From the NCBI GenBank assembly GCA_951799445.1, contig OX637293.1, positions 4,402,001-4,466,000 on the forward strand: a stretch of 64,000 nt of DNA, read 5' to 3'. Positions 1 to 38,669 of the stretch are shown here, one piece after another. The notes beneath the pieces are model-generated. The model was not told where the DNA came from. It ran no database searches and saw only the letters and a list, made by a program, of their open reading frames with translations. Position numbers and translations under genes: made by a program. This DNA is from Pseudisothecium myosuroides. Taxonomy: Eukaryota > Streptophyta > Bryopsida > Hypnales > Lembophyllaceae. Position 1 is the stretch's first letter. Every line of letters starts with the position of its first letter.

Positions 1-233
1 AATTCAACAATTCACACGGTGACAAAATAGATGATTTCCACGGTTATGAGCCCGTTGTTTAAGGGTTAACCCTTTACTTTCTAAGAAGCCCAAATTGGAC
101 CTCACATTTTTTTAGCAATTTTGAAGAGTTTAAAAGGAGATTTTAAAATATTTTAATAATTAATTATTTAAAACCAATACATGCAGTGTTCTTCACTAAA
201 CTAATGATATAATAAAATTTTCCATTTAGATTA

Positions 234-798: not shown

Positions 799-859
799 CT
801 TTTTACTATATGATCAATCAAAGTTCGCAACTTAAAATCATGAATTCTTAGGAAGTAAA

Positions 860-2850: not shown

Positions 2851-4035
2851 ACATTTGAATCCAAAAACAACAATGAAACTTAGATATTGATGAACACAAT
2901 GAGAAAATGGGAGCCAAGCATCAATTTTTGGCACAATATAGAAATAATAGGAGAGCCTAGAATCAACAATATGTAGAAATTTCATAACTTATTTATAGGG
3001 TGTCCAAATAATGCTTGCTAAAATACGTTGGAATCTCCTTATATTTTCATGAAGACTAGGGATTTTTTTTCCCTTGAAAATTCTCTAAAAAGCGATGAAA
3101 TGTTGGGGTCTCGGTTTTGGGGTATAAAAATGGCATGATTTTGAATCTGTAAATTTGCCAAAAATGTGGGTGCCACACCCTGTCCATCGCCATCGATTTG
3201 CAATGAGAGAGATGTACATGGCCCGGTTGAGTGATGGAAACTAGAAATTGTCATTGGACATGACCAAAACTCACATGGAATAAGGAAAAAAATAATTATT
3301 ACTTATGTCATGACCTATCAAATTAGCATATGTAGCGACTTCCCCTGCACAACCTACATTGCCTACGGGAACAAAATAAAAAAAACCCTAATAATAGGTT
3401 GAAGACAAGTTTTTTTTAGCAAATTTTTGTTAAAAAGCAATGCAATTTTTTTTGGGGGGGGGGGAATATTTGGCGAGACATTCTTTCTTTTTTGATGGAT
3501 GAAATCTCAAAATGCTACCAAATCTTGGGATGGTATCCCTCTATTTTTGATGAATGTACATACTTTTGAATGAATCAATAAATTTCATCCATACATTGTA
3601 GGTTTCATCCAATTATATGGATGTAAATGGCTTCATCACTCCAGTGAAGATTGCTTCCTACACTTCCTAAAAGAAATGGAAAAAAAACCCTGGTTAAGCA
3701 ACTTGAACCCACAATGCAAATTAGATTTTTTTTGCCTTTTTGGTGCTAGATTGCACCCAAAATTAATAATTTGGCTAAAAAATGGCAAAGAATCGTGAAG
3801 TTTTTTGCCAAAAAAATTCTTATTAAAAATAAATCTTGGATGAAATGGCTAGATTTGGTGAATGAAAACAAAATTATAGACATTTGATATGTGCTACTGT
3901 GATATTTTCTATCCAATATGTAGATGAAAAATGCTAAAATTTGGAGCACCACTATAACATTCAATAACGCCACTTTGGCACTTCGTAAAAAATGACAAAA
4001 AAAAAGTCCTGATGCAAATGATTATTGTTTAAGAT
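2851..4035. other. AT-rich non-coding DNA
   Basis: No gene recognised. Contains a poly-G run near 3,453-3,464 and scattered short frames without family resemblance. Confidence 0.5.
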
Positions 4036-4375
4036 AACAGGCTCTAAAATTGCACAGGCTCTAAAATCGCCCACCCTATTATAATGTACACTGCTTATAC
4101 ATGTAACTATTTCATAGCCTTTAGTGATGTACAAACAATGTACATTTTAGGGGGTGGGCGATTTTAGAGCCCTATGCCACTTCAACTTCAAAATTTCATA
4201 ACTAATTCCAGAAAGCTCCAAAAAATATGAAATGACTTGGGTTAGATGCCAATTCCTCTTGTCTTTCAAGGAAAATTTATCGAAAAATATATTTTGAGAC
4301 GTTTCACCTCCCCAAAATTCAGTTTCAGCTCTTAGGTGGGCGATTTCTGAACCTGTTACCTTAATAATAGTAAGC
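4036..4375. repeat. Nested inverted repeats
   Basis: An inner pair matches almost perfectly: GGCTCTAAAATCGCCCACCC at about 4,057 and its reverse complement at about 4,153-4,173. An outer pair begins AACAGG at about 4,037 and ends CCTGTT at about 4,362, and carries a second copy of the same GCCCACC-type sequence. It looks like a small foldback or MITE-type insertion, lying immediately upstream of the GC-rich promoter region. Confidence 0.5.
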
Positions 4376-10976: not shown

Positions 10977-11338
10977 ATCATCTCGAACTTAGTGGCTTCA
11001 TACCTGCGTACCAGAGTCTTATTGATTCAGTGGCTTCATACTTGCGTACCATAATCATACTGATTACGTGTATTTGGACGCACTGAATCAGTGTGAAAAC
11101 AATGAATATCAATAACGTATGATTCTTGTACTATTATTAGTACAATTTACGTGCATTTTGGATACCACATTTGTATAATTAAAGTACATAAATTGTACGC
11201 TTTTAAAACCCTTTTTAACGACACTGATTTAGTGCGTCCAAATACACGTAATCAGTACGATTATGGTACGCAGGTATGAAGCCATTGAATCAGTACGATG
11301 TCTGTTAAAAAAACGTCATTCCTTAAGTTCGAGATGAT
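10977..11338. mobile_element. Foldback (long inverted repeat) element, 362 bp
   Basis: The outer ends are inverted copies of ATCATCTCGAACTTA (10,977 and 11,338). Arms of more than 100 bp follow, including TGGCTTCATACCTGCGTACC against GGTACGCAGGTATGAAGCCA, and ACGTGTATTTGGACGCACTG against its complement near 11,230. The centre is a short AT-rich loop. It has no coding capacity. A transcript would form a long hairpin, so this could be a small-RNA source. Confidence 0.8.
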
Positions 11339-16359: not shown

Positions 16360-16368
16360 AAAATACTC
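16360..16368 (+). other. Left target-site duplication of the MULE
   Basis: AAAATACTC, identical to 34,603-34,611. It directly abuts the left inverted terminus, which begins CAACGACGCTAGC. Confidence 0.85.
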
Positions 16369-16582
16369 CAACGACGCTAGCATGCGAGCATGGAGCGGCG
16401 AGCTTGTGAGCTGCGAGCGTGGAGCTTGTGAGCCTAGAGCTTGAATTATTTTTTTTTTTAGAATTATTTCCCAAAAAAAATTTGTTCTAGATTTTTCCAT
16501 AAAAATAGAAGAAAACTTACTATTTATAGTAAGTTTTAGGACCTATGACCGCTAACCCTATGACCGTGGATGTAGGGTTATA
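16369..16582 (+). repeat. Left terminal inverted repeat and subterminal GAGC array of the MULE
   Basis: GCTAGC at 16,376 is followed by GAGC-bearing units starting at 16,384, 16,391, 16,398, 16,406, 16,413, 16,420, 16,428 and 16,435, that is every 7 or 8 bp. An inner block at 16,539-16,578 (GGACCTATGACC, then GACCGTGG and TAGGGT) matches the right end in inverted orientation. MULE transposases bind within terminal repeats, so the units are candidate binding sites (inference). A small palindrome, AAACTTACTATTTATAGTAAGTTT in type, lies near 16,513-16,536. Confidence 0.8.
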
Positions 16583-17383
16583 AAACTATTATACTTTGAA
16601 AATTGCCATTTCCTAAGAAATAGGACCCTATTAGTTCTATGCATAATTTCAGACTTTGCTCATCCTCTACAATTCTACTCTATACTCAATAACAAATTAT
16701 TCTAAAATGCAATACAATGAATTGAGCAACTAATACTCACAAAAAGAAAGATGGATATTACATAGCTTCCACTACCACTACTGTAGACATCAGCTCTTAA
16801 GACTTAGCTCAACATTGAGAACGCGCCCACTAGCATAATTTAGGGCCTCACGGGATTCGAACCCGGGCCATCAGCTTCTAGTCTCTTGGACCTCTCGCAA
16901 ATATACTCCAATCTAAAGGAGTGACCAGTCATTGGGGTTTATTTTTATTAAACGTGTAAGACATCTTTCCCAAAAAAAAATTTAATATGAAAAACATAGA
17001 AGGAGAGGAAATGAAATTAAAGAAATAAATTTGAAAAGAAATGGGAAAAAAATCTAACTAAAAGAAAAAAAAATAGAAAAAAAAGGGAAAAAAAAGGAAT
17101 ACAAAAAGAACAAAGAATGGGAGAAAAATGGGAAAGGGAATACAAAATAAATCTAAATAATTCATTTGTTAATTATACGTCCATTACTGGATAATGGGTG
17201 ATTATTGTAGTTCTTGGTCATTCACACCCCATATTGCCTAACATTCAATAAATGACACATATTTCTATACTTCACCAATGCATTAATATGTTCTATTCCA
17301 TATACTCCAAATCATTTCAATTGTACCAAAAGTATATTAATGCAATGCAAATGAAGTACAAAGAAGAATGTCGATTGCCCCCT
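16583..17383. other. Left interior non-coding flank of the MULE
   Basis: Holds the tRNA-like segment listed separately, a strongly A-rich stretch at about 16,970-17,160, and the 3' flank of the transposase gene. No further coding signal. Confidence 0.45.
16760..16965 (-). repeat. SINE-like segment with a tRNA-type B box
   Basis: Read on the minus strand, GGTTCGAATCCCG (about 16,851-16,863) matches the RNA polymerase III internal B box, preceded by a tRNA-like region and followed by about 90 bp of unrelated tail. A full cloverleaf with paired acceptor ends is not apparent, so it is better read as a SINE or tRNA relic than a functional tRNA. It lies within the MULE. Confidence 0.4.
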
Positions 17384-20300
17384 CTACTCTGGAACATTGA
17401 TGATCCCTGCTCGAAGTAAAAGAAGCTTCAATTCGTTGAAGCTATAACTGGGTGCATGAATGAATTGGTCATCATGGATGTCCATCTTGCAGAAATACCG
17501 GTACAGGTAGTACAAGTGCTTGCAATTCACATACGCTTGACGCCCTCCAATAGCAGAAACTGACATTTGAACAAAGTCCGGACATGTGCATGAGGGAAAC
17601 ATACCCAATGTAATTCGGTACACATTTCTGTTTGGGTCTATCCCGGTCTCTAGTGACACTATTGCACCTAGACCTGGAAAAGGAAGCAAGGTCACTCCAA
17701 GAATTTGCCCTTTCACGTTTCCAGCACTCTCCCACTTGTTCCGTTGCTCTGTAGTTGGTGCATTTGCATTCCGTCGTATAGTTCGGTTGTTCCTTACCGT
17801 CGGATACACACTTGCATCTTGTGGCGGCAATTGATCATAGAAGACACTTTCAAATATCTTCGACATATTGAACAGTCGTCGTGGTGACAATGTAGGGCGC
17901 TCTTGGAGTTGAAAACCAGCATGTTGTAAATACAATGTCTCCTCTCGATTGAGGTTGGTCCCAGTCAAAACAGGCCAAACTTCCGGCACTTCAGGCCTAT
18001 CTATAACGTACTTGCGCTTTGTACCTTTCACACATCTTTCAATGTCATCCCAGCAAAACCAAAAGTCTACCACGACCTCTCGTTTAGTCCCATAATCTTC
18101 CTTTCTACCACGGTAGGTGGGAGCTGGGGTTCCCTTCCGCCCTCTTGCAATTTTGGCAGTGCACTTCATATTTGATGTCCGTTGCTGAGCTTGACATTTT
18201 GCATTTGACTTATGACTGATCCTTGCAATGTGCCACTTTGACGTATCGCAGTCACTTTCGAATGCAATCGTAACATGCTTCAATGGCTGAACCTCAATAT
18301 GCTTTCCTTTCCCCTCAGAAGTCTCCACAGAAGCCGTATTGGACCTCATTCGAACACGAGGTTGAGAAAAGTTGATTTTGTCAGGTCGATGTGAGTCTCC
18401 TGCATCGCCAATGGGAACATCCAACTTCCTCTTCGTACTTCCAAAGATCTCTTCTCCTTCCAAATGCGGAATGCGAGTTCCAACACCCTCAGCTCCAGGC
18501 AATGTGTTCAATGCCTCTGCCATTTTCTTAGGGTCTCTGCTTCGTCTTGCAGCTCTCAGCTTCAATTCCCCCTTAGATGGACCAGATCCAGATGTATGAC
18601 CTTTTAAGTAAGCACGATAATTTGTCATCAGGGTCCACGCACGGATACTGTCATCGCAAGTTGCGTCAAACAAATTGTTGCCACGGTTGCCTGACATTTG
18701 AAGCCACTTGTTATGAATTGTTTCAGACAAGTTGCATGATGGCATGTCCGCCAGCTCCTCCAAACTCAAATCCTAGAAAGCCATCCCAAAAATAAAAATT
18801 CATCAGAACAATTTCATACATCAAAGTTAATAAACAGTATGCACTAAAGAAAAATAGTCCACATACACTTCAATACAATTAAACAACATTACAATCTCTA
18901 GAACAAGATTAATACACATAAATATTTTCTTTACAGAGAAAATTTGCAACAAACATACAATTCACAATGTTCTTTTTCTTTTTTTTCCACTGTGGGAACC
19001 AAAAAAGGGGTACCACAAAGGTGCCCAAATAATACCTTCGGATCCGACGGCAGTATTTTGGCTCCCCTGAGGTACCCCTGTTTTTGGTCAAACAGAAAAA
19101 GAAAAAGAAAAAAGAGGGGGCGGGTGACTAAGATGTTCCATTATTCAAATCAAATATGAACAAACCTTCTTTGCACACTACTACTTTAGAAGACTACAAT
19201 GCAACATAGGATTCTAAATTATATGCGAATATACCATTTGCATGAAGCCTCCCCATTGCCGGTATCTGAAATGCCAGAATGCAAGCCAATGGTCCAAGTG
19301 ATGAAGAGCATCTTCAGTGGCAGCTCCAGAGGATAACCACCACGACCGAATTGCAAGGTAACGTATCTCTGCCTCCTCTATCGTCTTTGCATCTTTGTAT
19401 TGCTTGCATAGAGTATTGTGCTGTTGTTGAAAAGCCTCCTTGATGTGCTTCTGAGTGTTTTTTTGAAGAGAACTACTCCAATGCAACAAGCATGTCCTCT
19501 CCCGATTCGCCATTTTATCATTGGCATAACCAGATCCATAGACAATACGGACAGCATTCCAATTTGCCATAGCACTATCTGCCATGAACCCCTTAAAGTT
19601 CGGGTGATCTACTCCATGTCGTGACATTACAACGTTCAAAGACCTCCAAAACTGCACCTGGATCTCGGTATCTTCAGATTGCATGTCACATGTTGAAAAA
19701 GTCATGACCTTCTTGTACTCTGGATCATACACGTGGCAAGCCATCGTGGTCCACTCCTTCACACGTTTCACGTGGTCAAACATCATCCACACATTCTGCA
19801 GATTTCCTCCGGGTTGCATGCGCCTCACTAGGTCCACTCCACTTCCAGGTCCTTCGGTTAGCATCTTGAAAACATACACCTTCTCTTTTCCTTGGCCAGG
19901 GAAGACGCTATCGTGAATGTATTCAAACCTGCACTCCTTCTTCATGGTCATGATGCTGTCAATGACCCCTCCACGGTTGTTTGAGCGAAATGAAGATATC
20001 ACATTGCGTATGTTTGGACTGCTCAAGTACTGGAAACGGTCCATCACCTCTTCCAGCTCCTCCCCCTTCAACAGCTCCTTCTCTCCTTCTCCGTTGTGAA
20101 ATAGGTAGTTTGTTAGAAATTCTTTGCTAGCAGAAAGAGCAATTGCGGAGTTGGTGGCCATTGGTGTTTTGGCCACCTGCTCTGCAATCAATCCACAAAT
20201 TTCTTCCGTGGAATCTCTATACATGCCTTTCGCAACTGGGTGACCATGATCCCCAAAGTGAATGGCAGCCCTACTCATTTTCGGATTATCACTATAGCAG

Positions 20301-21394
20301 TAGTACATCCTAGCATCGCATGTGCTCAAGCACGTAGGTGATTTTCTACAAAGTTTGCAAACTAGAGAAGAATCTTTGGGAGGACTCTCCCCTACTACAA
20401 AGGGAAACATTGTGTAACCACTCCACTCTGTTTCATTCTTCTTAGAAGCCCTCCTCAAGTAATCACACTCTGGATACTCACAAATAAGATGACCAGCGCA
20501 GTACGACTTCCGAAACTTGAGATTGTCAGAGTTGTTGATGTTAGTCGTCACCAACTTGCACCAAGGATGTCCGTCGTACCGCTTGTCCATTCCTTCCAAA
20601 TTCTTGGCTGCCGATGAAGACGAAGATGACCGACACGGAGGCAATTCAAAAATGACGTCCCCGTCAAATACTGCCGGAAGGAACTGAACACGATGATGTT
20701 TCATGCTATTCAGATCCATTGTTGACAGTTCGTTTCGTGAACGATGCATACTGGCGAGTCTGCTCAAACACTCTATTATACTTACTCGATCAACTGGAGT
20801 TGGATGCATTGGAGGTCGCGAGAAACAAGATTGTGCTGGACTATTTGACGGGGTTCCTGATAAACTATTCACAGCTGATATATCATGCGATACATGTGGA
20901 ATTACGGAAGGTACCTTCTGAAGTGTCAAATTCGGGGACTCTCCTTCTGACTCGCTAGATAACTCTATGATAGTATCCAATTTCTCAACCTTCACTGTCC
21001 GCAAAATTGCAGTGCTTGGGAGGACTGGAAACACTTGACGAGGTGGACTACGCAAAACGCTTTGGGGCATGTACGGCATGTCCACTGTGGAGTTATCTGA
21101 CTGACGGCTTACTATCTCAGTAGATACAGTTAGCACAGACAAGGGAAGTCCATAAGCTCTAAAATTACCGGAAGACAAATACCAACAGTGACCTTCTTCT
21201 TCAAGCGACTTCACAACTGGGATAGATTGCTGTAACTCCCTAGACTCTGAATTCTTCTCTTCTTCAACATAGATTGAGGACTCCACAAATCTAAAGCGTA
21301 CATGAAGGAGGTGGCTGAGAACCCTAGCACGCCCTCCTTCATCGATTGGAAACACTAATGGAACCTCATGACCATCTACTCGAATGAAAGCCAT
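17384..21394 (-). CDS. MULE-type transposase with GCM/WRKY-like zinc region and SWIM finger
   Basis: Cuts and joins the element ends (family role). Two exons: 21394-19235 and 18772-17384. The donor follows residue 720 (CAAATG|GTATAT), the acceptor is TTCTAG|GATTTG, phase 0, and the total is about 1,183 residues. Residues 1-280 are Ser-rich and acidic (IIELSSESEGESP). Cys/His pairs at about 298-385 (CAGHLICEYPEC, CKLCRKSPTCLSTCD, HFGDHGHP) resemble the WRKY-GCM1 zinc region known from MULEs. The DDE core shows TCDMQSED near 570, FMADSAMANWNAVR near 606, CLLHW near 635 and EEAEIRY near 675. The SWIM finger is CTCPDF near 1,116 and VNCKHLYYLY near 1,137. There are no internal stops. It is divergently arranged to the ParB-methyltransferase gene. 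Confidence 0.85.
18998..19088. repeat. Hairpin palindrome 1 (GGATCC core), in transposase intron
   Basis: The arms begin ACCAAAAAAGGGGTACC and end in the complementary GGTACCCCTGTTTTTGGT. The centre at 19,035-19,050 is CCTTCGGATCCGACGG, one position off a perfect 16-bp palindrome. It sits inside the single intron (18,773-19,234) of the transposase gene. Confidence 0.85.
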
Positions 21395-22210
21395 GATTAC
21401 AACACATGCGATGGAGGAAGCAGAAACAAAAACAACGGAGCTTTGGTGTGTATAACATAACTCTTGACCTTCATTTGAAACTAGAATTTCAAAAATAGAT
21501 AGTGCAAATTAATCATGGTGAACTCTACCATGATGTAGTAGGTGAATTTCAAATTCAAATTGCATGATGACGTACCAAGTTCTAGGCCGCCAACCTTTAC
21601 CTTCATGATGACCGTCTTTTAGAAAGAATGAGGTTAGGCGGCTATGTCAGATTCTTTGCTAGGTGCATGCTCTTAATTCTTGCCTTGTCAGTATTTTTGG
21701 AAGAATCATAATTATGGGAGGCGACAATGCCTGTCATCTTTAAAGTGCATACACTCTAAGCAGTTGCGTTCCAAAAATTCAAATGATATATTAGAATTAC
21801 ATGCATCACTGCCTGACCCAAGATATATTTCCTGACAGAGTTGCTTCACAACTACCAAATATAGAGTTCTTAAGATTGACGGTGCATTAAAGTTTGTGTC
21901 AGACATCACAGCTAACAAATACAAGGCGGCTGCCTATGTGTACTCCACTACAGGATGGCATTTATTGAGCAACCTCAACACTACGTTTGGACGACTACAA
22001 GTTGGCCCTTTCTCCCTGAAAGAGTCTTTTCAATTTTGTCGCTTAAGTTTACCAGTACATGTCTTGTGGAGGAGTGCTCATTTTCTTTTCTGTTCTCCCA
22101 TGCTTTTAGATTACCAAAGCTCACTCTCCGTTGCTCTGAAGCACACAAAGAAGAGGAAGAAGCGTAGTTCTTTGTATTTCTCCTCTTTTAAGGTATTGAA
22201 GAGGTCAAGG
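21395..22210. promoter_or_regulatory. Divergent intergenic region between transposase and right-arm genes
   Basis: About 0.8 kb separates the transposase start (minus strand, 21,394) from the first candidate plus-strand exon (ATG 22,211). Such head-to-head spacing implies promoters for both arms here. No TATA box or operator-like motif stands out. The plus-strand frame is open from 21,896 but reads as low-similarity sequence before 22,211. Confidence 0.4.
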
Positions 22211-22402
22211 ATGACTCGAGGGAAGAAAGTTATGTCAAAAACCAGTGATGCGACTGCAGGCGAACTCCGGAAGTCTCTTCATTTTGAAGAAGGAAGTAGC
22301 GGCGGAGAGGACAATGTTGGAGAACGAAGCGAAGATGCACAGCGTAAAGTGACTGAGGATACGGCCATTCAGAAAGTTTTAGGACAACAAATCGACTTCA
22401 GT
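22211..22402 (+). CDS. Candidate first exon, acidic/basic low-complexity protein
   Basis: ATG at 22,211 opens a 64-codon exon (MTRGKKVMSKTSDATAGELR at the start, ending QQIDFS) before the good donor AGT|GTAAGC at 22,403, phase 0. It is hydrophilic and Ser/Glu-rich, without a recognised domain. It could splice in phase to the exon at 27,160, making it an alternative first exon of the ParB-methyltransferase gene, or it could belong to a separate small gene. I cannot choose from sequence alone. Confidence 0.4.
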
Positions 22403-23651
22403 GTAAGCTTTTTTCCTTCATAATCCCATTCTTTGGAATGCATTATATCACCCACGTTATTGAGCTGCTTTACTGAAACTTCCATATGGTTTGTAGTGAG
22501 GGTTTAGAATGAATTCAATGATAGTAGATTCATATTCTCCATGTGCGCTTTCTGGACGTCCATAGTAGAGTCTGGTATCCATGGACTTTGAAGTAGGAGT
22601 AATTATTGTTGTAATACATGAATATTACTGATAGAATGGAAAACTACTTGCAAATCATGAATATGTAGAAAGAGAATAGCGTGCCACTTCATCTGTAGTG
22701 GTGTTCCAAGATAGACCGCCACTATGAACTTGTCACTAGAAAAGTGTTGAAGTTTTTTCTCGCGATAACTCTCTGAGCTTGACTACTATGAACAGATAGC
22801 TAGCTAGATTAAATTCTCTTTAAAGCTCCCTGCTGAATTGTACATCGGCTTATTTGATTGCAATAACGCACTGTAAGACTAGAATTGACATATAGCTAGG
22901 TAGATTTGAATTCTCCCTGGAGCTCTTTGAAAATAGTAGTACAGTATATGTATGGATCCAACTGGAATGATTCTGGGTGCAAAACGCATTCTTGGTCCTT
23001 TCAACGCATTTGCCTGCCTTGCAGTTATTTGAGTTCCTTCAGCTTCTAGTTACCGTAATCTTGCCTGTACAACTTCTATGATAGGATATTGTTCAATTTA
23101 AAAAAACCTACAAATTTCTCTAGTAATACTAGTAATTCTAATAATTCGCAACATCCGACCTTGACTTGTATTAAACCTGCATGGACTATATTAAATACGG
23201 ACGTCACTAATTAAGCACCTTCATCAGTATTGATTACTGCAACGTGGAGGATTAACCTATAGGATTTCAGAGTTCACTCAATAGCAAAGAGATCCCGTAG
23301 CAAGTTCCCACTCAAAATTAGAATTTGACACCTGCAAAGTGGTAAAGAGAGAATTTTTTTCAAATTCCAAATGATGAAATTAGCATGCACAAAATTCTTG
23401 GTGGACTTGGCTATAGTTCCCTGCAATGAAAAATAGCAGGAGTCAGTGGAATTCCCTGGAAATCCGAATTCTCTTTTCAGAGAAAGAAGCCTGATTAATC
23501 GGATCAGCTCCGTTTGCCCGCCGATGCACCTTCTGAAGCCTGTCCTTTATGATCATGAACTCGAAATATTCTCTCTCCCAAAATCGCCAGAGTTGTTTTT
23601 TAGCCCGAATGTAATCTTGCTGCGGAAGGACTTGCGTGACAACTGACCACA
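22403..23651 (+). other. Probable intron or spacer in the MULE right arm
   Basis: AT-rich sequence between two candidate 5' exons. No ORF or repeat recognised. Confidence 0.4.
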
Positions 23652-23792
23652 ATGTCGAAGAAGATGCAGGTGCGCGAGATGAACACTAAGAGAGCAACCA
23701 GGAGTCGAACGCGTGAGGAAGTCTCAGCGCCAAGGCAGCAGCTTGAACTCCAGGTCGAAGGGATATCTAATCACCTGCAAGCACTTGCGGAG
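23652..23792 (+). CDS. Candidate alternative first exon, basic N-terminus
   Basis: ATG at 23,652 opens 47 codons, beginning MSKKMQVREMNTKRATRSRT and ending LQALAE, before the donor GCGGAG|GTATGC, phase 0. It is Lys/Arg-rich and could act as a nuclear localisation region (inference). The phase fits the acceptor at 27,160. Composition rises to about 50% GC here, unlike the surrounding introns, which supports coding. Its relation to the exon at 22,211 is unresolved. Confidence 0.45.
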
Positions 23793-24193
23793 GTATGCGC
23801 CTTCCCCTTCTTATCGTCCAATGCTTTTGCTATTCTGATTCCCGGTTCACGATCAAACTCGCAGCGCCTCGGAAGCACGATGCCAGACTGTTGCGCAATC
23901 AAGTGAAGCATCACCCTCCAAGTCGCCAGCTAGCTCCAAAGAAAGATTAGCAAATTCTCGTTGAAGTTCTTATTTGTACTTTGCGTTATTAGATTGGGGT
24001 CAACAGGTCGTCTTGAATTTAACGAGGAAGTGACCAGAAATTCTGATTCTCGCTAGAAACTGAACTCAACTGTTACAGATGAAGAGGCCGAGAGTAAACG
24101 CATTGACGGAGATAGTACAAGGTAGTTTAGTGTCTGTCAAGGTAGAAGCAGAATGAACAAGAAAAATATCAAAAAATTTTAACGCTGGAATTG

Positions 24194-24299
24194 GCAGGGG
24201 ACCGATTTTGGGGGTAGCCGAAGGCACCCCAGAAAGTACCGTCGGATCCGACGGCACTTCTTGGGGTGGCTTCCGCTAATCCAAGAATCGGTCCCCTGC
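24194..24299. repeat. Hairpin palindrome 2 (perfect 16-bp core)
   Basis: The arms begin GCAGGGGACCGATT and end with its complement AATCGGTCCCCTGC. The centre at 24,239-24,254 is the perfect palindrome CCGTCGGATCCGACGG. Arm pairing continues with mismatches through GGCACCCC. Located in the inferred 3.4-kb intron. Confidence 0.88.
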
Positions 24300-25203
24300 T
24301 GGTTCGTCTTCTCAAGAATTACATGTAAAGAAAACCCAGGATTTGTTCAAGAGCTTCCCGATCTGGATACTTGTTCCAAATCTGAACATACATGCTTGAG
24401 CTGTTCCAGACATTCTCGTCATGAGTTGTATGTGATCGGGATTAGTTAAACTTCGCTCCAGCTTAGATTCGATAGGCTTCATCGGAGATGTTCATTGTCA
24501 TGAATCGAGAGAAATCAAAATTTCAACCTGATCTTGCTGGTTCGCCTTTGTCCTCGATCTTCGTTGCCATGTCTCCAGCCTTCCTGTCGTCATTGGCTCT
24601 AGATCGTTCGACCTTCTGGCTTGAAGTTTTTTGCATCTCCCCTGGATCAAAGATTCCCGGTCCCTTCGGTCACCTCTTGTTCTTGCTTTTGGAGTGGATT
24701 CTAATTTTGTTCGGGCTCAGTTGGTCTTCAGCTTCTCATGATCTCTGGCTTTTTGGATCTTACTACTCTAGGTCTTGTTGTTTCTCTTGCTTGGAACTTT
24801 GCTCTTGCTCTCGCGGTGATGAATCTTGATCTGTTCTCGTCCCGGGCCTAGCTCTCACGATGGATCGGAGTCATGAACGACCCGAGAGAACTCTGTACTA
24901 TCTGATTTTTCAGTATAGAGGTTTGTTAATAGGTCCGTAACTTCCATTAGAGAATGTGAATACGCTTCGAATTGGACAGAGAGAGATGCTTCAAGACATC
25001 GCTCAACGCAAACACACGTTCGTCACGGCCAGGAATAGAATGGGATCCAGTCTCGGATCTAGATCGATCGATCAGTGAGAGAATTAGCCATGTTTTCTAA
25101 CCTTCTCTTCCCCGTTCGTCTTCCACTTGCGGTTAGTCCACGCTCCTGCAACTTAAGCAGCGTCATGCCAAATTGTTCATCGACAAGAACTCTGGTATCG
25201 TGC

Positions 25204-25314
25204 AGGTACCCGAAAGAGGAGTACCCGCTGGTACCTCTAGATACACCATCGGATCCGACGGTGTTTCCGGGGGTACCAGCTGGTACCCCTCGTTCTGGTA
25301 TCCGGAGGGTACCT
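25204..25314. repeat. Hairpin palindrome 3 (GGATCC core, multiple GGTACC)
   Basis: The outer arms are AGGTACC and GGTACCT, and the inner arms contain GAGTACCCGCTGGTACC against GGTACCAGCTGGTACCCC. The centre at 25,246-25,261 is CCATCGGATCCGACGG, one position off perfect. Located in the inferred 3.4-kb intron, just before the T-rich tract. Confidence 0.85.
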
Positions 25315-25344
25315 GAGGTCATTGGGTTAACGTGACAGAGCGGG

Positions 25345-25560
25345 GTTTTTCTTTTTTTCTTTTTCTTTTTCTTTATTATTTTTTATATCCTTTTTTTTTT
25401 TTTTTTTTTTTTCTTTTTTTTTTTTCTTTTTTCTTTTTTCTTTACCTTTATTCTTTAATCTTTTATCTTTATTGATTTTTCATTTTTTTTTTATGTTTTT
25501 TTTAATGTTTTTTAATTTATTAATTATTTTCTTATTATATTTCTAAAATTTTTTAATACG
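25345..25560. repeat. T-rich low-complexity tract
   Basis: Nearly pure T with scattered C and A for about 200 bp, following hairpin 3. It may be a decayed poly-T tract or pyrimidine-rich intron sequence. No coding content. Confidence 0.7.
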
Positions 25561-26455
25561 AAATTTCTATGTTGATGATAATCACAGTTCAATACTTATT
25601 AAGAATTTATTTTTTCAAGTGAAATTCAAGATTTGATTATTTTGTGAATAATTTTTAATCATTCAGTTACTTTTAACGGAAAATTTTATTTGTTGAATAT
25701 TTATTTATTAGAGGAGTTCTTATATCTATTAGAGGAGTTATTTATTGAATATCTATTTATTAGAGGAGTTATGATATTTGTTAGAGGAGTTATTTATTGA
25801 ATAGTAATTTATTAGAATAGTTATTTATTAGAGAATTTATTGAATATTAATTTATTAATGTAATTCTCGATGTGCAAGTCTGTCTAGTTAGTGTAACGTT
25901 TCAACATTTCTTTTATATAATTATTTTCACTTATAATGTCAGAATGATATTAACCCTGTTCGGGTGCGAGGGGTGACCCTGGAAGTCATGCATTGTATAA
26001 CCGTGAGAGTCCTTGGAATAAAAATATCCAAAAGTACTTATTGGAAGTCAAGTTACTGTAAATGTTCTCCATTTTACACAAAAAACTCCAAGGATGAATA
26101 GTTGTAGTTCTTTCCAACATTAGAGAATACCTTGTCATTCATCGGACACTTACAGTCCGCGGCATCCTTACTGGGTTAAAGACTAGTCTACTGTCCATTT
26201 AAATTATTCTTTGAATTGAGGTTGGACAATTTTATTTTTTCTTTAAATTTTTTATGAATATGTTTTATATCAAATTATATTTAATTTTGTTCAAAATGTC
26301 ATTTCTATGCATTTACTATTGGATTTCTCGTTTCACTTTGTCATTTGAATTATATGTGAATTTCTGGATGTAAATCTTTGTTCGTATCTGTTTTTTCTAT
26401 GAAGATTTCAGTGTGCAAAGTAGTTACACAGATTTAAGAAGTTGATCCTACAGTT

Positions 26456-26531
26456 ATATAGTTCATGAAGGGTACCAAAAGCAGGAGTACCTCCTGGTAC
26501 CCTTGCTTTTGGTACCCTTCATGAACTATAT
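26456..26531. repeat. Hairpin palindrome 4 (no GGATCC core)
   Basis: Perfect 28-bp arms begin ATATAGTTCATGAAGGGTAC and continue CAAAAGCA. The centre is a 20-bp GTACCTCCTGGTACC-type sequence. The outer arm closely matches hairpin 5, so it appears to be the same unit with the central part missing. Confidence 0.88.
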
Positions 26532-26817
26532 GTCTTTGTCATGAAAGTAAACGTGAGGTTTGACTTGTTGTTATCATATTAAATTTTATGCGATACAATT
26601 ATCAATTTTAGCACTCACAAATGAAGGACATCATGCAAAATGCTTGTTTTGTGATTCTATGAGATATTGTTTCATTATATATTGTATTGGTTTCATGATT
26701 TGACATTGTATTTCAAAATATTTTTAATATTCTTATTTGATACCTATATTGGAATACTCCTTGTTTATTGACATTAGAGTGTGGAAATGAGTAAGTTTGG
26801 TTTCAAGAATTGTCCCT

Positions 26818-26957
26818 AAATTCATATAGTCAATGAAGGGTACCAAAATCAAGGGTACCACCTGGTACCTAGAGAAGGGCCGTCGGATCCGACGGCTGTT
26901 TTCTAAGTATCAGGAGGTACCCCTGATTTTGGTACCTTTCATTTACTATATGAATTT
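26818..26957. repeat. Hairpin palindrome 5 (perfect 18-bp core)
   Basis: About 60-bp arms run from AAATTCATATAGT to ACTATATGAATTT with few mismatches and include GGTACCAAAATCA against TGATTTTGGTACC. The centre is GCCGTCGGATCCGACGGC, perfectly palindromic, with the 16-bp core at 26,880-26,895. Located in the inferred 3.4-kb intron. Confidence 0.9.
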
Positions 26958-27159
26958 TTTGGACTGGATTGTGAGGCTAGACCCGTCCATATCATAGTCA
27001 GTGCACTTCTAATTCCTTTACATGAACTTATAGAATTCTTTTTGAAGGACATTATGCTCAATTGGTTGTTCTCTAATTTCGTTTTCATGCTTTTATTTTA
27101 TGAGACATTGAAGATAACAAGTTGTGAATTTGACTTTTTAATTGCATTTGCACTTGCAG

Positions 27160-27630
27160 GCAGTGGGTGTCCATCTTGGTCAAGCATCATCTTCCATGGA
27201 TGATCGACCAATTGCTCTTCTTGACGGGGTCCCAATTCTTGCGGTGGGAGCGCAATCAGAGCCTGTCACTCCTACTCGAACAAACGTGGACATCTCCAGC
27301 GATTCGGAGGCTAAGGAAGGGGAAGAGGATGAGTTGGTAAGCACAGGGGCAATTGTGGATCCTGTACATCTTTCTACGAACTCAAATAAACGGCCACGTG
27401 GGAATCGTTTTAGTTGGCAAAGGAATTGGAAGGGAAGGCAGCCGGTTTTTTCACCGGAGAGTTCGAAGACTGAATACAGCTCTGAACCAAGTGTGTCCGA
27501 ATCCGTTTGTAGCCCTTTGCAAGAAGAGTACTGCGATTGTGCATGTAGTGCTAGTACGCCGAGGCACGAGATTGTCATCATTCATCTGAGCTCTGACTCA
27601 GATGAATCGGTAGACATAGAGTCATCATAG
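27160..27630 (+). CDS. Acidic, Ser-rich upstream exon or separate protein
   Basis: Follows the acceptor TTGCAG and is open from GCA at 27,160 to TAG at 27,628-27,630. It encodes AVGVHLGQASSSMDDRPIAL, then an acidic run (SSDSEAKEGEEDE), a short basic patch (KRPRGNRFSWQRNWKGR) and a Cys-bearing segment (EEYCDCACSAS), ending SSDSDESVDIESS. No known domain. A GTAGAC donor at 27,610 lies in phase 0 and could join DSDES to the ATG exon at 27,846 through a 236-bp intron ending TTTTAG. That would give one protein of about 1,300 residues with the exon at 23,652. Otherwise it is an independent small protein or the C-terminal exon of an upstream gene. Confidence 0.6.
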   Translation, partial: AVGVHLGQASSSMDDRPIALLDGVPILAVGAQSEPVTPTRTNVDISSDSEAKEGEEDELVSTGAIVDPVHLSTNSNKRPRGNRFSWQRNWKGRQPVFSPESSKTEYSSEPSVSESVCSPLQEEYCDCACSASTPRHEIVIIHLSSDSDESVDIESS

Positions 27631-27845
27631 AGAGAGTTTTCTATTTTACTTTCAATATTATATGGATATATGTATGTGATGGCCATGACTTTAGTTGGCT
27701 TATTTGTCATGTAATTATTTCAGTATTATCTATTTGGTATATATTGCTATTGTGAGCTTCCCAATACCATGAATTTCTGAACTTATTTTGTATTGATGAT
27801 TTGTAAATTGGTTTATAACGCATATTGTTTTGTACTGTCTTTTAG

Positions 27846-30800
27846 ATGGATTTATCCCCTGTAAATGAAACTCAAGAGGAGAGAGTTTTGGAAACTCCAG
27901 AAACGGGTGAAGAAACTCAGCCAGATATTGTAGGTCAGGAAGCGGTACCATTTATGGAAGCGGATGTGGAAGAAGACGAGGAGAAGGAATTGTTGGAGGA
28001 CGAGCTGCGTCGACTTCAGAAGGTTGACTCTGTTGCCACTATCAACATGTTAAGAATGAAGCCGGCGAAGATGTTCCGGCTTCAAATTCCTCTTTGCAGG
28101 CTTGTAGCGATGCCAATGGTCCGGCCGACATTGTTATGCGACATCATGAAACTGGAGACCGAATTTGTGTTTGGATATCGTGAAGGAGCAGCAGTTTTTT
28201 ACGTGTCAACCACCAATGAGGCCGGGGAGACATCTCACTTCACTAGCGATGAAATGAATCGTTGGAATTCGATATGGAATGAGAGGAATGATGAATTCAA
28301 CGATTACGTTGAGTCCGAGCCGGCATTGCGATTTTTGAAGAACTTGAAGTTCTTTGTTTGTGATGGAAATCATCGACTTCAAGCGTGGATGAGGTATATC
28401 ACGAGGGTCGAGTATGCAAACCCGGATTTACTGTCTAGTGGACTGCATCGTCTTGGATACTAAGGGAAAAAAGGAGTTAGTCATGCAAGTCATGCATGAT
28501 ATTAACAAGTAAGTATGCAATTCTCATTATTGTTTGCATTTCAAAGTACGTCGTAGTCATTTTAACCTGCATGTGGCGTATTTTATTTGAAAGAAGTGAC
28601 TCACATTTGTTTTACCATGCAGGGCGACGGAGGACTCTCACGTGAAGACGAACTTGGTACATGATTTGTACCGGGTTCAAAAGTACGGTCAGCTTCCCTT
28701 CGAAAAATTCAAAGAGATGCAAAGGCCCTCAGAAGTAAAGATATGTGTTGCTAAACCGAGCAAAAAGTGGTATTCTATGCCTCAGGAAGTATTTACTTCA
28801 TTTTTCTTTCGGGTAAGCATTTCATATGGTCGCCTTCTCTGTTCTCATTATATTGCTTTATAATCTACTCTTTTAATTTGCATGTATTATTTCATTCACA
28901 AGGTGCTTGTGGTTTGCAGCAAGAGATTGCACAGGCGGCGGACGCGGGTGTGAGAAAATATAACGAGACAACCAAATTTGAACTCAAGACTCCCGAAGGA
29001 GTAGCTCATGCCATGCGGGTCGCAGCAAAAGAGAAGAATCGAACGTTAATCACGAAGATGGGTAAACTTTTGTCAGGCGCACAACCAAGTAATGGGGCTG
29101 GATTTCTCCAAGAGGTCAGTTCAATTTTCAATGGATTGATGATATGTTTTTATTTTGATTTGCATGTCATCATTGGTATAAACAAATATTGGATTTCTTG
29201 GCAGGTGGAGAAGCATTGGAGCGTAAATGAGTCTCCAGAGATGACACTGGAGAAAGTACAGATGGTGGCGACATGTGCCACTACATCTTTTCACAAGGTG
29301 AAATTCTTGCAGTGGTGGAACTCATCATTTCCATCTCGTGAAGCTCGAAAGTTTCCGCCAAGGCCCGTTTCCGAGGGTCATCTTGGGCCGTTCTTGAACA
29401 AATGCGTTTTTTACACCGGGGTGAGTCACTATGTGCTGTAATGATTTAAATTTCTAAGTTTTTTAAAATTCAAACACTAGTACTCTATTTCATAAATTGT
29501 ATGTGTTAATTTATGTGTTGCTTTAACAGATCGAAGATGCTGCTGTGGAGTATTTTGATGATGTTGTCAAACAAGACAACATTCCAATAAACTATGGGGT
29601 CCCGGAGCAGCCAGAGTTCTTAGTAGAGTACTTGGAGGGATGGCGGAGGAAGCTTTGGGAGCAAGCTTTCGGACCGTTTTTGAAAGGCAACAGCCCGTTC
29701 AAAAAGGGGGACAACTTCATGACATTGGAAGGGACAAATCTTGCCGTTCGAAGGGTGTTATATCGGTATGTCAACAAAAATGAATAGTATATTTCTTTGT
29801 AATTATGTGATTCTTAAGATTGTGAGGACATGCTTATTTCGTCTACAATATATTGGAATTTTTTTTTTTTTTTTTTTTTTCTCGAGAACCTAAAATGGGA
29901 GTACCTTGAGGTACCTCAAAAACCACCTGCGGATCCGACGGTTGTTTTTGAAGTACTTGAAGGTACTCCCGTTTTGGGTTCTCTTTTTTGTTCCCATTTT
30001 TTTGGGGTGGCTTTATTGGATATTTTGACAGTTTGCCGAGAGTATTTTTGTGGATTATGAGAAACAGTATTCTCCATTGTTGTTTGATCTCATGGCTTAT
30101 TTTACCATATACATTTTTATAAAAATAATTTTAGGATTTTCATTTTCATTTTTCAAATGTTTTGTAATGATTGGTTTGTTTTTGTATTGCAGGTACTTCA
30201 AGCTAGAGCTTGAAGCCAAAGGTGCAATTGCCAGGAATGACCTCCCTCCGTTTTTGAGCACGTGGTTGGATCGCAGTTCAGGTGTTGGCATGTACACTCC
30301 AGCCCAGATGTGTATCTTCACGACAGCTCATTTGAGTGGTGGGGGTTGGTACTTAGATTGCAACGGAACTTTTATTCATCCGTCGGAGCGACAATTGTGG
30401 CAATCTTTGGAAGGCAAAGGTGTTATTGATTACGTGGTTGATGAGTTCGCAGCATTGACTGACAAGCAGAAGAAAAGGGCCATTGCAAGGAGGGAGATCA
30501 GTGACAAGAAGAAAGAAGCCCGGCTTGTGAATCTGGTGATCACGAAGGAGAAGAAGGAAGTGGAGCGGCAGGAGAAGTTGGCGGAGAAGGAAAAGGAGAA
30601 GGAAAAGGAGAAGGAAGAGAAGGCCAAGTCAAAAGGCAAGAAAAAAGTCGATGGAGGTGCTCCAGTTCCTGCTTCTTCGACGGTGGACCAAGGATCCCAG
30701 ATGCAAGTAGGATCTCAAAGCGGGATGAAGAGGAAGGCACTTTCACAGCTGACTGAAGAAGTCATCACTCATGGGACACAGGTGATTGTTTTGGCTGATG

Positions 30801-32381
30801 ATGACGCGATCAACATGGAGGATTTGATTCTGAATCTTTCCATTGAGGATGTCGTAGAGAACATGGACTCCGATCCGCTGAATTGCTTGACGGAGGTGCT
30901 GGAGTTCTTGAGGAAGGTAAATTTTTTTATTTTGTTTAGCCTTTCATGAATGAGCTTAAAGAAATGAAAAAAATTTGGATGAATGATTAATTGTTTGCTG
31001 TGATTTATCTTTGCAGCTGTCGGCAGGAAAGCCTCGCATGTACGGAGGTGTACTGAACCGGTTTCCGGGAGTGGACCTTGTGATTTTTGATTGTCCAGAT
31101 AATTTGCCCGCGCCGGGAGTGTCGTTAACTAAGAATGAGGTGCCGACGTGGAACGCGGACAAAGATAACGAGGCTCTTCAATCGGCTTTTGCTTTTGCTG
31201 AGCGGCATCTACAAGACGACGGATGCATGATTGTTTTTCACTCTTGGTGTGTAGATTCCAAGAGTAATATAGCAGGATTGTGTGAGACATATCCGATGGT
31301 GAAGTTCAAGGAGTTGTGTGGCGTCAACCGTCTGCCGTTAACATCCGCTATTGAGTCAGGTTGCACGGTAAGTTTAATGTTGCATGTTGAAATTGAAGTA
31401 TAACTTTGTGATGTATCTTATTATTGTAGTTTCCGACGTATGTTTGATTGCAATGATTGCAGACGATGAAGTTCGGCGTCAGTATTCTTATAAAGCATCT
31501 TGGCGATGAGGCGAAATCAAATTTTTGTTTCAAACGATCAATGGCGATGAAGAAGGCTAATGTTGACCTCGTTTGGAACGACATGATCAACAATTATACT
31601 TTCGATGAGAACATGGCGATGAATGGTGATAAACCATGGCGGGCGGGTCGAGAGAAGGACCCTCGCTTCTTACAGATGCTCATTGAAGGCACGACCGTTG
31701 AAGGAGATGTGGTATTTGATTGCAGCGCATCTACAGGTTAGTCTTTCATTTTATTATTGAAAATTTATATGATGTTTTGCGAAATGAGTCATTGAACTGA
31801 AGCTTCTGAATTTCTGAATTTCAGGTGCATCGATTCTCGCTTGTCGTGGCTTAGGCCGTCACATTGTGGCTTTGGAGGAAAACAAAGACATTTTTGATGC
31901 CCTCCTAGAACCCTTGAAGAAGGAGGTTCCAGTCGAAGTCACTACACAACCAACGCCGGCAGTTGTTGAATCACAAGATCCCGAGTCGGCACCTGTGGTG
32001 TCCAAGAGGTTTATTCGGAAAACTAAACCTAATAAGTAAGTTTCCATTTTTTCCCTCATTTCTTGGCATGGTAATTTTCATGCTTCAGAAGTCTAACATT
32101 GTAATATTTACATTTGCAGTCGTACAAGAGTGATGGCAGCAGATGCGATGATGAAGAATAGAAGTCTTCTATTCAGTCCGGAGATGACTTTTGATCTTCC
32201 GGTGTATGCCCAACAGTTGGCTTCGGCGTTTGCAGATTTTGGCTGCCAGAAACCGAAACGCAAAAAAAATAACTATACTTTGAATGTTTTAAATTTTATA
32301 GATAGGTCAGCGTCTGAGGGTAGAGAGACTTCTAAGTCGTCTATTGCGGACGATTCAGCAACCGAATCTACTGCGAATTAG
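27846..32381 (+). CDS. ParB-like domain fused to beta-class DNA N4/N6-methyltransferase-like domain (one frameshift)
   Basis: Ten exons in consistent phase: 27846-28508, 28623-28812, 28920-29114, 29205-29420, 29530-29765, 30193-30916, 31017-31367, 31463-31736, 31825-32035 and 32120-32381; about 1,106 residues if one extra base is discounted. An acidic N-terminus is followed by a ParB/sulfiredoxin-like segment ending FFVCDGNHRLQAWM (about residues 75-180), an unrecognised helical middle, and a Lys/Glu coiled-coil-like run (30,550-30,640). The methyltransferase-like part has motif IV VIFDCPDN (31,085-31,103), motif X-like REKDPRFLQMLI and motif I VVFDCSASTGAS ending VALEEN (31,708 onward). The IV-then-I order is that of beta-class enzymes. 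Key residues deviate: DPPY is DCPD and FxGxG is SxSxG. The frame breaks by +1 near 28,418-28,423, giving a stop at 28,461; phases elsewhere are intact. Activity is unproven. Confidence 0.8.
29884..29983. repeat. Hairpin palindrome 6 (GGATCC core), in ParB-methyltransferase intron
   Basis: The arms begin GAGAACCTAAAATGGGAGTA and pair with the complementary end at 29,983. The centre at 29,926-29,941 is CCTGCGGATCCGACGG, an imperfect 16-bp palindrome. It lies in the intron 29,766-30,192, directly after a poly-T run. Confidence 0.85.
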
Positions 32382-34479
32382 ATTCACGAGATTGACATAT
32401 CTCGTGAGTTACTGTATTGTGTGTTAGTTATGATTATGATTGGATTTGTGTGTTTTATGGCTAAATCGTGGGCGTAGTTCTTGTTTTTTCCATTTGAGTA
32501 ATGCGTTATTTCTTTGGAGTATGCAATAAGTGATAAAAGTAGTAATATAAGAATGAATACATGTGAAGGGCCCAAAAAAACTTGGGGCTGAAAATAATGA
32601 TTTCAATTAGTATAATATGAGGTATGTAAAATGTCCTTAGATGTATCTTAAACTCAAACGCATTTGGAAAAATGGAATGTAGTAGTGAAAAAGAAAAATT
32701 AAGATTTTAGATTGTTTATGAATTTAATGGGAGAGATGTCCTAATTCTGGATGAAGGTCTGGCATTGAAACCGACATTTACAGTATATTGTACTCTTATT
32801 CTAAATTCATTAAACTTTTATGATCTAACTAATGTACCACTCTTAATCTGAGAATTTGAAAAAGATCATTAATTTATCATATGCAGTTTTTTTTTTTTGT
32901 ATTGTAGTAGTTGCTATGCAAGGAATAAAGGATGGTCCCTCCAAAATTAGACCTCTGTGAATGAGCCACGGTAGTGTAGCCCAGTACTTAAACACCCAAC
33001 CTTGAAACACCGATCTCGTGCATTCTATGTTTTATTTAGTGCAGTATTTTAGTTCAACAGAGCTGAATTGATCTTGTATTTACCAATGACATGAATTTTT
33101 TGTTGTACACAAAATAGTGAGAGTAGGTTGCCCCACACTAATTTGTCGGCATTCAACACTAAAAAAATATATTTAGTTATTGTACAAGAATACACTACTT
33201 TTGAATTAGATATTGTTGTAATTGGGATTCATGAACCTCCATGTGTACAAATGAAATTTTTTTAGAAATATTTGTTGACATTAATGGCTTATACGGTCAC
33301 TTGCATGATGTAAGGCAACCTAATTGTTAAGGCACCTAATTTCACTATTTTGTGTAGTTAGCCTAGGCTTTTATTTAGCACAATTGACCCTAAACCCTAT
33401 TAAATAAGAACTACGTATTGGTGAACTATCTTATTGATATCTTATTGAACATTTTGATTGTTCTCTACTTATATTTTGATGAGGCTTACATTCATAATTC
33501 CATAACATATTAATTAATAGGAGTTCTTCCTGTAGCCATTACATTTCAGGACGGCACTATGAGATATTTTCCTCGGTTTGTGTGTAATGTACCTAATTCT
33601 CATATAAAGCTGATCCGATGATGGTATGCTGAACTAGCCTAAGTGCATGAGTTACATACATTCTTTGTACTTGCTACTTTACATATTGATTTGTCTTCAC
33701 AAATTGGGCTTAAATTTTTATCTAAACGTAGAGCTGTGAATGTTTTTTTGCGGCTTGATGACAAAGCCTTCAAATTATATAACTCCTTGAATCTTCTTTG
33801 TTTAGCTAAAATTTGCATTTGTAGACTTTGTTTGCTGTTTCCACAGGCATTATTGTATTCTAGAAAATAGGCTTGGATTAGGCATTTCTGTCAAAGATGG
33901 CCTCCACTTACTCAGGCTACCAAGAAGTGTTAGCTATTGTTTGTGTTTTTATTCTACTTGATATATTTTTTAGACTTCTTGAAATATTGTCAATAAATCT
34001 ATTCTTCAAAGCAAAATTGGATTGGAATGTAACCGACTATCTTTCATATTTTTTAGAGCTTTTTAGATTTAGATATGAATTTGTACATGTTGGAGCGCTA
34101 ATGGGTTAAGAAGCCCATTAATTTGAAATAGTAAACCCTACACAAAATTCTGTAGTTGTAAGTAGTGAAAAAAATTAAAATAATATAACATATGATATAC
34201 TCATGGTAATTGGGAATTACAATTAATGTCTGTCCCTTTTTTAATGAGCCAAATTCGAAATTATATATATTGATAGACTGCAAAATAAATGATCATCAAA
34301 AAATGATACCCCCTATTAATTACTCACCCTAAATGTATATCTTTATTTTTTTTAAGATTGCACCCTTGAGGTGAATATATTCAAAATTGCCAAAATTCGG
34401 TGGTTGCAAATAATATTTATAATAATTTTTCAGTAAAGCCTCTAGATTGAAGAAAATGACCTCACATCTCTTGAATTTC
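32382..34479. other. Right interior non-coding flank of the MULE
   Basis: 3' flank of the ParB-methyltransferase gene, then AT-rich sequence to the right terminal repeat. Short frames at 33,643-33,870 and 33,897-34,109 show no family resemblance. I see no further gene. Confidence 0.5.
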
Positions 34480-34602
34480 ATGACACCCTAAACCCACGGT
34501 CATAGGTCCCTCATCTATTTTTTCTTCACAAAAAGTTTCCCGCTCACAGGCTCACAGGCTCACGGGCTCACAAGCTCACAGGCTCGCCTGCTAGCAACCC
34601 TG
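34480..34602 (-). repeat. Right terminal inverted repeat with strict 8-bp GCTCAC array
   Basis: An inner block at about 34,484-34,510 (ACCCTAAACCCACGGTCATA and on to GGTCC) is the inverse of the left-end block. GCTCRC units then start at 34,542, 34,550, 34,558, 34,566, 34,574 and 34,582, exactly 8 bp apart, followed by GCTAGC at 34,590. The terminus ends at 34,602, next to the target duplication. Confidence 0.85.
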
Positions 34603-34611
34603 AAAATACTC
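34603..34611 (+). other. Right target-site duplication of the MULE
   Basis: AAAATACTC, identical to 16,360-16,368, immediately outside the right inverted terminus. Confidence 0.85.
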
Positions 34612-36936: not shown

Positions 36937-37744
36937 TTAACCCCTAACTGCCTTAGCAACCATATATGGTCGATCTGAAATTTCAGGCTCATTTTGGTAT
37001 GGGCAGTTAAATTTGTTTGACCGTTTTAAATTTTTTTCGATTAGTTTTTAGGGTTAACTATTGAAAACTTTCATTTTTCACTGCAAAAGGCAAACATTTG
37101 ATTTTTGAGAGGTCTTCAAAGCCATATATGTCCATTAGCGGAAGAGTAAAGCTTCCTAATTTTTACTTCATTTCTCAACTTTTGCCAATTTCACTTGATT
37201 TGAAATCTAAAAACTTGTACTTATCCATTAACTTTGAAAATGGTCTCAATGGAAAGAATAAAGTGTTTTCATGATTTTCACCATTGAAAATTTAAACATG
37301 CAAGTGTTGATTTGGAATTATTTGCGATTTATACTTATAAAAAAACCCTGCATTTCACCAATTGCAAGGTGGATCATGTAATAAGTGATAGCTTTTCATG
37401 TGAAATTAAGTTTTTTGAAAGTGCATTTTAGTGTGCTTACATTATTAGTAGTTGTTCATGTCACTTCCCATTCCAAAAAAATTTTATATGCAAATTTCTA
37501 AAACATTGTGGGGAGGGCAGCATACTAAAAATAGAAAGCATACATTTCTCTTGTTATAATCTCACAACTCCTATGCAATTTTGCACTCAAAATTGGTATG
37601 CATACTAATAATCAATTTCTTTAAACATCTACATGGTTAGATTTTGAAAAAAATACAATTTGCTTCATTGAGGTTAACTATAAGCCTATGCTCTTTTTTC
37701 ATAGTTAAAACACACTTGAAAAGGCTTGGGCATTTAGGGGTTAA
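36937..37744. mobile_element. piggyBac-like non-autonomous element, 808 bp
   Basis: The ends are TTAACCCCTAA (36,937-36,947) and TTAGGGGTTAA (37,734-37,744). The interior differs from the 35,787 element but matches 2,131-2,850 in inverted orientation, so this is a second subfamily with the same ends. No coding capacity. Confidence 0.6.
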
Positions 37745-38669
37745 TGCAATGCAACTCTAATAGAGATAAGATGATTATTTAAAAAAAAATCTTACTTTTA
37801 CATAATTTATTTATTAACTTGGTTCTTTTAATAAACCTATAAAAGCCTTTGAAACAATTTAAAAAAATTTTGAAACCTTAATCATTTGTCTGATTATATT
37901 AGAATTAAAAAATTCCATTTGCTATTTATATTGTATCTTATAATTTAATACCACAATTGAATTATTTTTAATTTTTTGAGCTATAATTTACTAATCACTT
38001 GTATAGTACATAATTAAAAATTAATTAATTTATTCTTAATTTGTATGTAATCTATATTATAAATATTTTCAAAATTTTCATGTATTTTAAGAGTCAAAAT
38101 TCACCAATAAAAAATATCATAGATGTGAATTATGTATTATAGGTGGTTGTCAAGTTTAACATTCATTGTTGAATAATTAATTAAAGTTTGAAAATATGAT
38201 TTGATAAAGGCCTTGGCATAAAAATATTTTCTCTACTTAGTTTTTTACTTTAAAAAATGACATCTAAAATATTCCAACATCTTTTTGTAGGAATATTTTT
38301 TGCCAAACCTAACGATTGGGCATGATAATAAGTATAAAGAACAATAACAATCTAAATAGATTCATGAAAAATGTAAAAAGTTAAAGCATTTAATTTGAAG
38401 TTTTTTAAATAATAAATTAATTAAAAATAGATATTACTTCTAACTTTAAAGCACGGGCATGAATCAAGTGAATTGATAAAACTAATCATTAAAAAAATAA
38501 GCATATTTGGATTTGTACAAAGCTAATTGAAGTATAAATAAATTACATACAGTAACAATTGAATTAAAAACAATGAATAATTATAATTTGTAATACTAAA
38601 GCATCAAATCTAATTTTAAATTTTAATTCATGTCTTCAATTTGAATAGAAGGTAATACATTTTTTTATC

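Follow-up and report, generated by a model that had tools for sequence, protein, structure and literature searches.

Within the window (the whole 64,000-nt stretch of Pseudisothecium myosuroides DNA that was analysed), we identified a unit of 18,234 bp (16369-34602) lying between exact 9-bp duplications. It carries a transposase gene on the minus strand and a second gene on the plus strand, with transcription outward from the middle. A sequence-only reading of this DNA had described a Mutator-like element (MULE) carrying a ParB-methyltransferase gene as cargo or accessory, and its placement of both genes, head to head, inside 18,234 bp was confirmed. The features of the locus are as follows.

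16360..16368, unstranded: left target-site duplication copy, 9 bp, AAAATACTC (read directly and by script)
16369..16441, plus: left terminal inverted repeat and subterminal GAGC-type iterons (3 x 22 nt; read and by script)
17384..18772, minus: transposase exon 2, SWIM-like CxC..CxH, includes the stop
18973..19112, unstranded: palindrome 1, in the transposase intron
19235..21394, minus: transposase exon 1, with ubiquitin/PB1-like N-terminus, GCM-like part (weak fold matches) and DDE RNase-H core
23652..23792, plus: putative exon 1 of a possible third gene, suggested by a GT-AG splice that keeps the phase
24194..24299, unstranded: palindrome 2
25187..25320, unstranded: palindrome 3
26456..26531, unstranded: palindrome 4, without the GGATCC core
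26818..26957, unstranded: palindrome 5
27160..27630, plus: putative exon 2 of the possible third gene, acidic
27846..28508, plus: second gene exon 1, ParB-like motif CDGNHR; the frame breaks between 28407 and 28437
28623..28812, plus: second gene exon 2
28920..29114, plus: second gene exon 3
29205..29420, plus: second gene exon 4
29530..29765, plus: second gene exon 5, matched by the relatives P0067, P0069 and P0070
29884..29983, unstranded: palindrome 6, in intron 5 of the second gene
30193..30916, plus: second gene exon 6, conserved at its start and further on charged, rich in lysine and glutamate; matched by 11 of 16 relatives
31017..31367, plus: second gene exon 7, amino-methyltransferase motif IV region, DCPD
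31463..31736, plus: second gene exon 8, motif X and the beginning of motif I
31825..32035, plus: second gene exon 9, remainder of the SAM-binding region
32120..32381, plus: second gene exon 10 and stop
34534..34602, minus: right terminal inverted repeat and GTGAGC-type iterons spaced 8 bp (read and by script)
34603..34611, unstranded: right target-site duplication copy, 9 bp, AAAATACTC (read directly and by script)

Borders and transposase of the element

Target-site duplications of MULEs measure 9-11 bp, and here AAAATACTC was read at both borders as an exact 9-bp duplication, as had been claimed. The unit also has terminal inverted repeats, CAACGACGCTAGCATGCGAGC and CAGGGTTGCTAGCAGGCGAGC, which are short and imperfect, with GCTAGCANGCGAGC common to both; in a longer view the left end reads CAACGACGCTAGCATGCGAGCATG and the right end, on the opposite strand, CAGGGTTGCTAGCAGGCGAGCCTG. 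Both ends lead into GAGC-type repeats, those on the right forming a six-copy family in 8-bp steps. The plain identity of the ends (18/28) is not rare, since the window has 13 pairs with at least 18 matches, where five shuffles gave 1-3. Because such an identity count is unremarkable in DNA this AT-rich, we used a composition-weighted score that left out 9-mers with more than 80 copies. The ends next to the 9-bp repeat scored 25.3 bits, which was equalled or exceeded by none of 290,765 pairs from 20 block shuffles, and the earlier claim of matching ends held on this measure. In the real window, two of 22,706 9-mer pairs scored higher, both of them poly-T.

The transposase gene comprises two exons, both open, that encode 1,182 aa. 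Its product has a DDE transposase core with the Mutator/IS256 fold and a CxxH that follows the second Asp, as is found in MULEs, and the predicted fold of a transposase relative was matched best by ISCth4, so the designation MULE is correct and the intact transposase described for this arm was borne out. The Pfam SWIM model reached E 0.091 on the transposase, short of its cut-off, though CxC..CxH is present, and it had no match in the relative at locus L001. This locus (1-4101), a transposase relative, was the only one found in the genome contigs scanned; its intron lies at the same place, and the contig, filed under a cyanobacterial genome, is probably plant contamination. The viral contigs scanned held no relative. 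Taken by itself, the MULE unit is in our judgement highly probable.

Several other features were seen in the window. Inverted repeat arms at 2122-2693 and 37182-37753, about 35 kb apart and 81-88% complementary, flank the element at a distance and are perhaps a dispersed repeat. Open frames at 6399-8407 presumably resemble a plant proline dehydrogenase gene, while fragments with WLDNCSGH at 55897-56562 resemble what we take to be a DDE transposase of another type.

The second gene and its relatives

The second gene (27846-32381) has ten exons, as had been read, and each of its nine introns begins with GT and ends with AG, but it is not intact. Its first exon runs into an in-frame stop and the downstream exons require a different frame; moreover, the distance between two anchors in exon 1 is 31 nt, compared with 33 nt (11 residues) in all five relatives covering the place. 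On these grounds the gene is broken in this copy, barring sequence error. Upstream, 22211-22402, 23652-23792 and 27160-27630 were picked out by eye as candidate exons of a third gene, or else as other possible first exons for the second gene, and the last of these presumably contains SUMO-interaction-like stretches.

With the full-length accessory protein as query, none of 5,198 candidates matched at E <= 0.01, and a query joined from three exon pieces retrieved 16 proteins among 160 candidates at E <= 1. Five of these match exon 1 and 11 match exon 6 (three also exon 5), and exon 7 is matched by none. A longest contig of 22,368 bp, in the same archive, is listed for both the accessory relative P0066 and the transposase relative P0005. 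It is the one pair with an identical longest contig from 16 accessory and 56 transposase matches, the latter confined to proteins of 0.55-1.75 times the query length, such that a missing partner on a contig carries no meaning. P0060 (exon 6) and P0063 (exon 1), both listed with 4,688 bp, show that an equal length can point to a single contig. The placement of P0066 and P0005 on one contig, drawn from one identical length, is suggestive.

Divergence was compared among six transposases and seven accessory proteins. Transposases P0005-P0008 and P0010 are 80-87% identical to each other with P0003 outside at 58-61%, and accessory proteins P0064 and P0066-P0070 are 77-91% identical with P0062 outside at 50-65%. 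The clusters of P0064 and P0066-P0070 comprise 66 member sequences, perhaps including several assemblies of one species. Such in-step divergence is the pattern that would be expected of two genes of one multiplying element.

Elsewhere in the window, at 49897-50094 and 50625-50840, there is a decayed relative of the second gene that shares about 33% identity and has an internal stop. Searches of the window outside the element by tblastn and profile detected no transposase remnant accompanying this relic (49.9-50.8 kb), which leans against a lasting association. The description of a MULE with this gene as cargo or accessory thus stands in part: both genes lie between matched ends and the relatives suggest a lasting association, but the relic weighs on the other side. 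On balance we judge it likely that the gene is lastingly associated with the MULE.

It could instead be a passenger, a gene of foreign or host origin that was trapped within the ends, as in a Pack-MULE, with no role for the element. The broken frame and the solitary relic would fit such a history. However, this is a full-length gene of ten exons rather than a fragment, its relatives are well conserved, and they diverge to a similar degree as those of the transposase, with one pair sharing a longest contig of equal size. We therefore regard a passenger as unlikely. A Pack-MULE in the strict sense (non-autonomous, carrying gene fragments) does not fit the element's own open transposase and the full-length ten-exon gene.

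Methyltransferase-like and ParB-like parts of the product

The C-terminal third of the second-gene product matched Pfam N6_N4_Mtase at E 1.4e-4 (22.3 bits, cut-off 26.7), and this part also matched PHROGs families down to E 3e-5 and NCBIfam models down to E 3.6e-4. Beta-class amino-methyltransferases have the motif order IV-(TRD)-X-I, and the same order was found here. Compared by profile with three phage enzymes, the stretch running from motif IV to motif I gave 90.6% at E 1.3e-6 (0.6% for an exon-6 control), a comparison that is not independent since the enzymes were chosen because the query matched them weakly (E 0.01-0.08). In the profile alignment, DCPD stands opposite DIPY and DCSASTG opposite DPCAGSG; motif I has lost a Gly. 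Among bacterial and phage beta-class enzymes, CcrM (model E 5.5e-4) and DpnA (chain E 0.013) have the same motif order, but the product differs from both in its motif IV (DCPD), its motif I (DCSASTG), about 730 preceding residues of other sequence, and ten exons. The likeness to beta-class methyltransferases proposed earlier is real, but the catalytic motif is altered.

The catalytic forms of motif IV are given as [DNS]PP[YFW] (PMC8885841), and none of these is present in the element (DCPD) or in the relic (DVPD). The first Asp is retained in both readable copies and the aromatic residue is replaced by Asp; the relic also follows the same pattern, DxPDxxPxPxVS. As exon 7 is covered by none of the 16 relatives found, motif IV is known from these two copies. 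The change has been kept between copies only about 33% identical, which suggests constraint and not decay.

This bears on the possibility that the accessory protein is an active amino-methyltransferase writing 4mC or 6mA on element DNA. Its beta-class order IV-X-I is colinear with that of phage DpnIIB-like enzymes and the first Asp of motif IV is kept, both of which favour a writer; against it, motif I has lost a Gly and motif IV has Asp in place of its aromatic residue in both copies. In the rotifer N4CMT, replacing Ser and Tyr of the motif (SPPY to APPA) abolishes 4mC (PMC8885841). Since motif IV reads DCPD or DVPD, activity as a methyl writer is unlikely, and as an account of the locus we consider it quite improbable; the earlier proposal that the protein marks element DNA by methylation is weakened. 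The other roles proposed for it, in protecting the element or regulating its movement or segregation, are hypothetical. Given the effect of substitution in N4CMT, a non-catalytic role of the methyltransferase fold appears more likely from the two copies. N4CMT itself is a host gene of bdelloid rotifers that deposits 4mC at transposons and keeps SPPY (PMC8885841). The two cases share a bacterial-type amino-methyltransferase in a eukaryote with a link to transposons, but the gene described here sits inside the transposon and is without the SPPY motif.

The ParB identity assigned to the N-terminal part fared less well. Its motif is present, CDGNHR being conserved in all six rows of alignment A1, but the Pfam scan found no ParB, with weak matches to DUF1015 (E 0.017 and 0.061), and ParB-like PHROGs matches (E 0.29 and 0.42) came from two of three proteins scanned. 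A comparison with P1 ParB gave 0.1%, though the aligned stretch is the matching box (KFFVCDGNHR over KIEILDGSRR). The predicted model of this part was poor and had no fold match. We treat the name ParB, which comes from a short motif, as a lead.

Palindromes and a putative helper function

Six long GC-rich palindromes were found in the window using a G+C filter, and all six are inside the element, which occupies 28% of the window. When the filter was dropped and longer spacers were allowed, the count rose to seven, of which six lie in the element; the additional one, near 38706, is AT-rich and weaker. An AT-rich gapped inverted repeat with 123-nt arms, unlike the six palindromes, is located outside the element at 11017-11298. 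The sequence CGTCGGATCCGACG is common to five of the six with 0-2 mismatches (expected, 0.19 at up to 3), and the folding of every one of the six is much stronger than that of shuffled sequence (z -7.3 to -17.0). Beyond the core, the five core palindromes pair their own arms at 27-31 of 37 positions, whereas arms of different copies average 20.4 (16-25), and the self-complementarity is thus individual to each palindrome. Four of the six fall in the long intron of the possible third gene; the remaining two lie in the intron of the transposase gene and in the second gene's intron 5. In P0067, P0069 and P0070, intron 5 is replaced by a read-through of about 46 codons in which no such palindrome was seen by eye, so that gain or loss of palindromes has occurred. 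These sequences could be foldback elements nested in the unit or, alternatively, candidate sites for an element protein.

A gain of sequence within the unit, which the palindromes indicate, would also suit a composite in which the second gene came from a different element that was inserted into the MULE or joined to it. At 18 kb the unit is large for a MULE, and according to a giant-transposon review no Pack-MULE of one survey exceeded a full-length element of 7 kb (PMC6431247). An inner border was nevertheless not apparent: 8/9-bp direct repeats beside inverted ends, sought at 21395-27845 on the left and 32382-34600 on the right, were no better than in 20 shuffles, the best scores being 10.6 and 12.4 against shuffle maxima of 16.0 and 16.6. 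Together with the 22.4-kb contig listed for relatives of both genes, this makes a composite origin highly unlikely.

DpnIIB targets GATC. The best phage matches of the product include a DpnIIB-named enzyme and the palindromes centre on GATC, a link that is a lead only. In a self-recognition system built from bacterial parts, a ParB/methyltransferase-derived protein would bind the element's own 16-bp palindromes centred on GATC (CCGTCGGATCCGACGG) and from there protect the element or mark it, and a plant MULE would then work with a parS-like set of sites; we think this very improbable.

The reading that we put forward, at about even chances, is a MULE in which a conserved accessory gene encodes a protein that binds the DNA of the element and aids it against silencing or in the control of its movement. 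The element would be an autonomous MULE with a gene set of transposase and accessory protein, the latter a putative DNA-binding helper whose methyltransferase fold may recognise DNA instead of methylating it. By analogy with VANC and VANDAL, this helper would act on its own element in anti-silencing or excision control. The present copy has an open transposase but a frame-broken helper gene, and would consequently rely on helper from other copies.

MuDR is a MULE with a further conserved gene, its two genes pointing towards each other, and MUSTANG genes carry a PB1 domain. An additional conserved gene is shared with MuDR and with Kaonashi, in which MULEs carry ULP1-type genes (PMC13317346), although the accessory protein here is a different one and the genes, unlike those of MuDR, point outward. 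Unlike MUSTANG genes, which are domesticated and transposase-derived (PMC3435246), the PB1-like transposase described here lies in a mobile unit. VANDAL/VANC of Arabidopsis likewise combines a Mutator-like element, a transposase and an accessory gene, with VANC acting on its own family; VANC21 motifs occur in introns and upstream regions of VANDAL21 (PMC5735166), and some of the palindromes are also intronic. However, VANDALs are non-TIR elements (PMC13317346) with tandem motifs as sites, while this element has short TIRs and palindromes as candidate sites. The plant MULE accessory genes given in that review are VANC and ULP1-type, and a term search of its main text returned neither 'methyltransferase' nor 'ParB' (PMC13317346).

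Transposons with their own helpers reveal how genomic parasites answer host silencing, and VANC is a worked plant case. A second helper class, derived from a bacterial methyltransferase fold, would allow the requirements of such helpers to be tested independently and would also supply new sequence-specific DNA-binding proteins. The like change of motif IV in two distant copies raises the question of what role a methyltransferase fold takes on after methylation has been lost.
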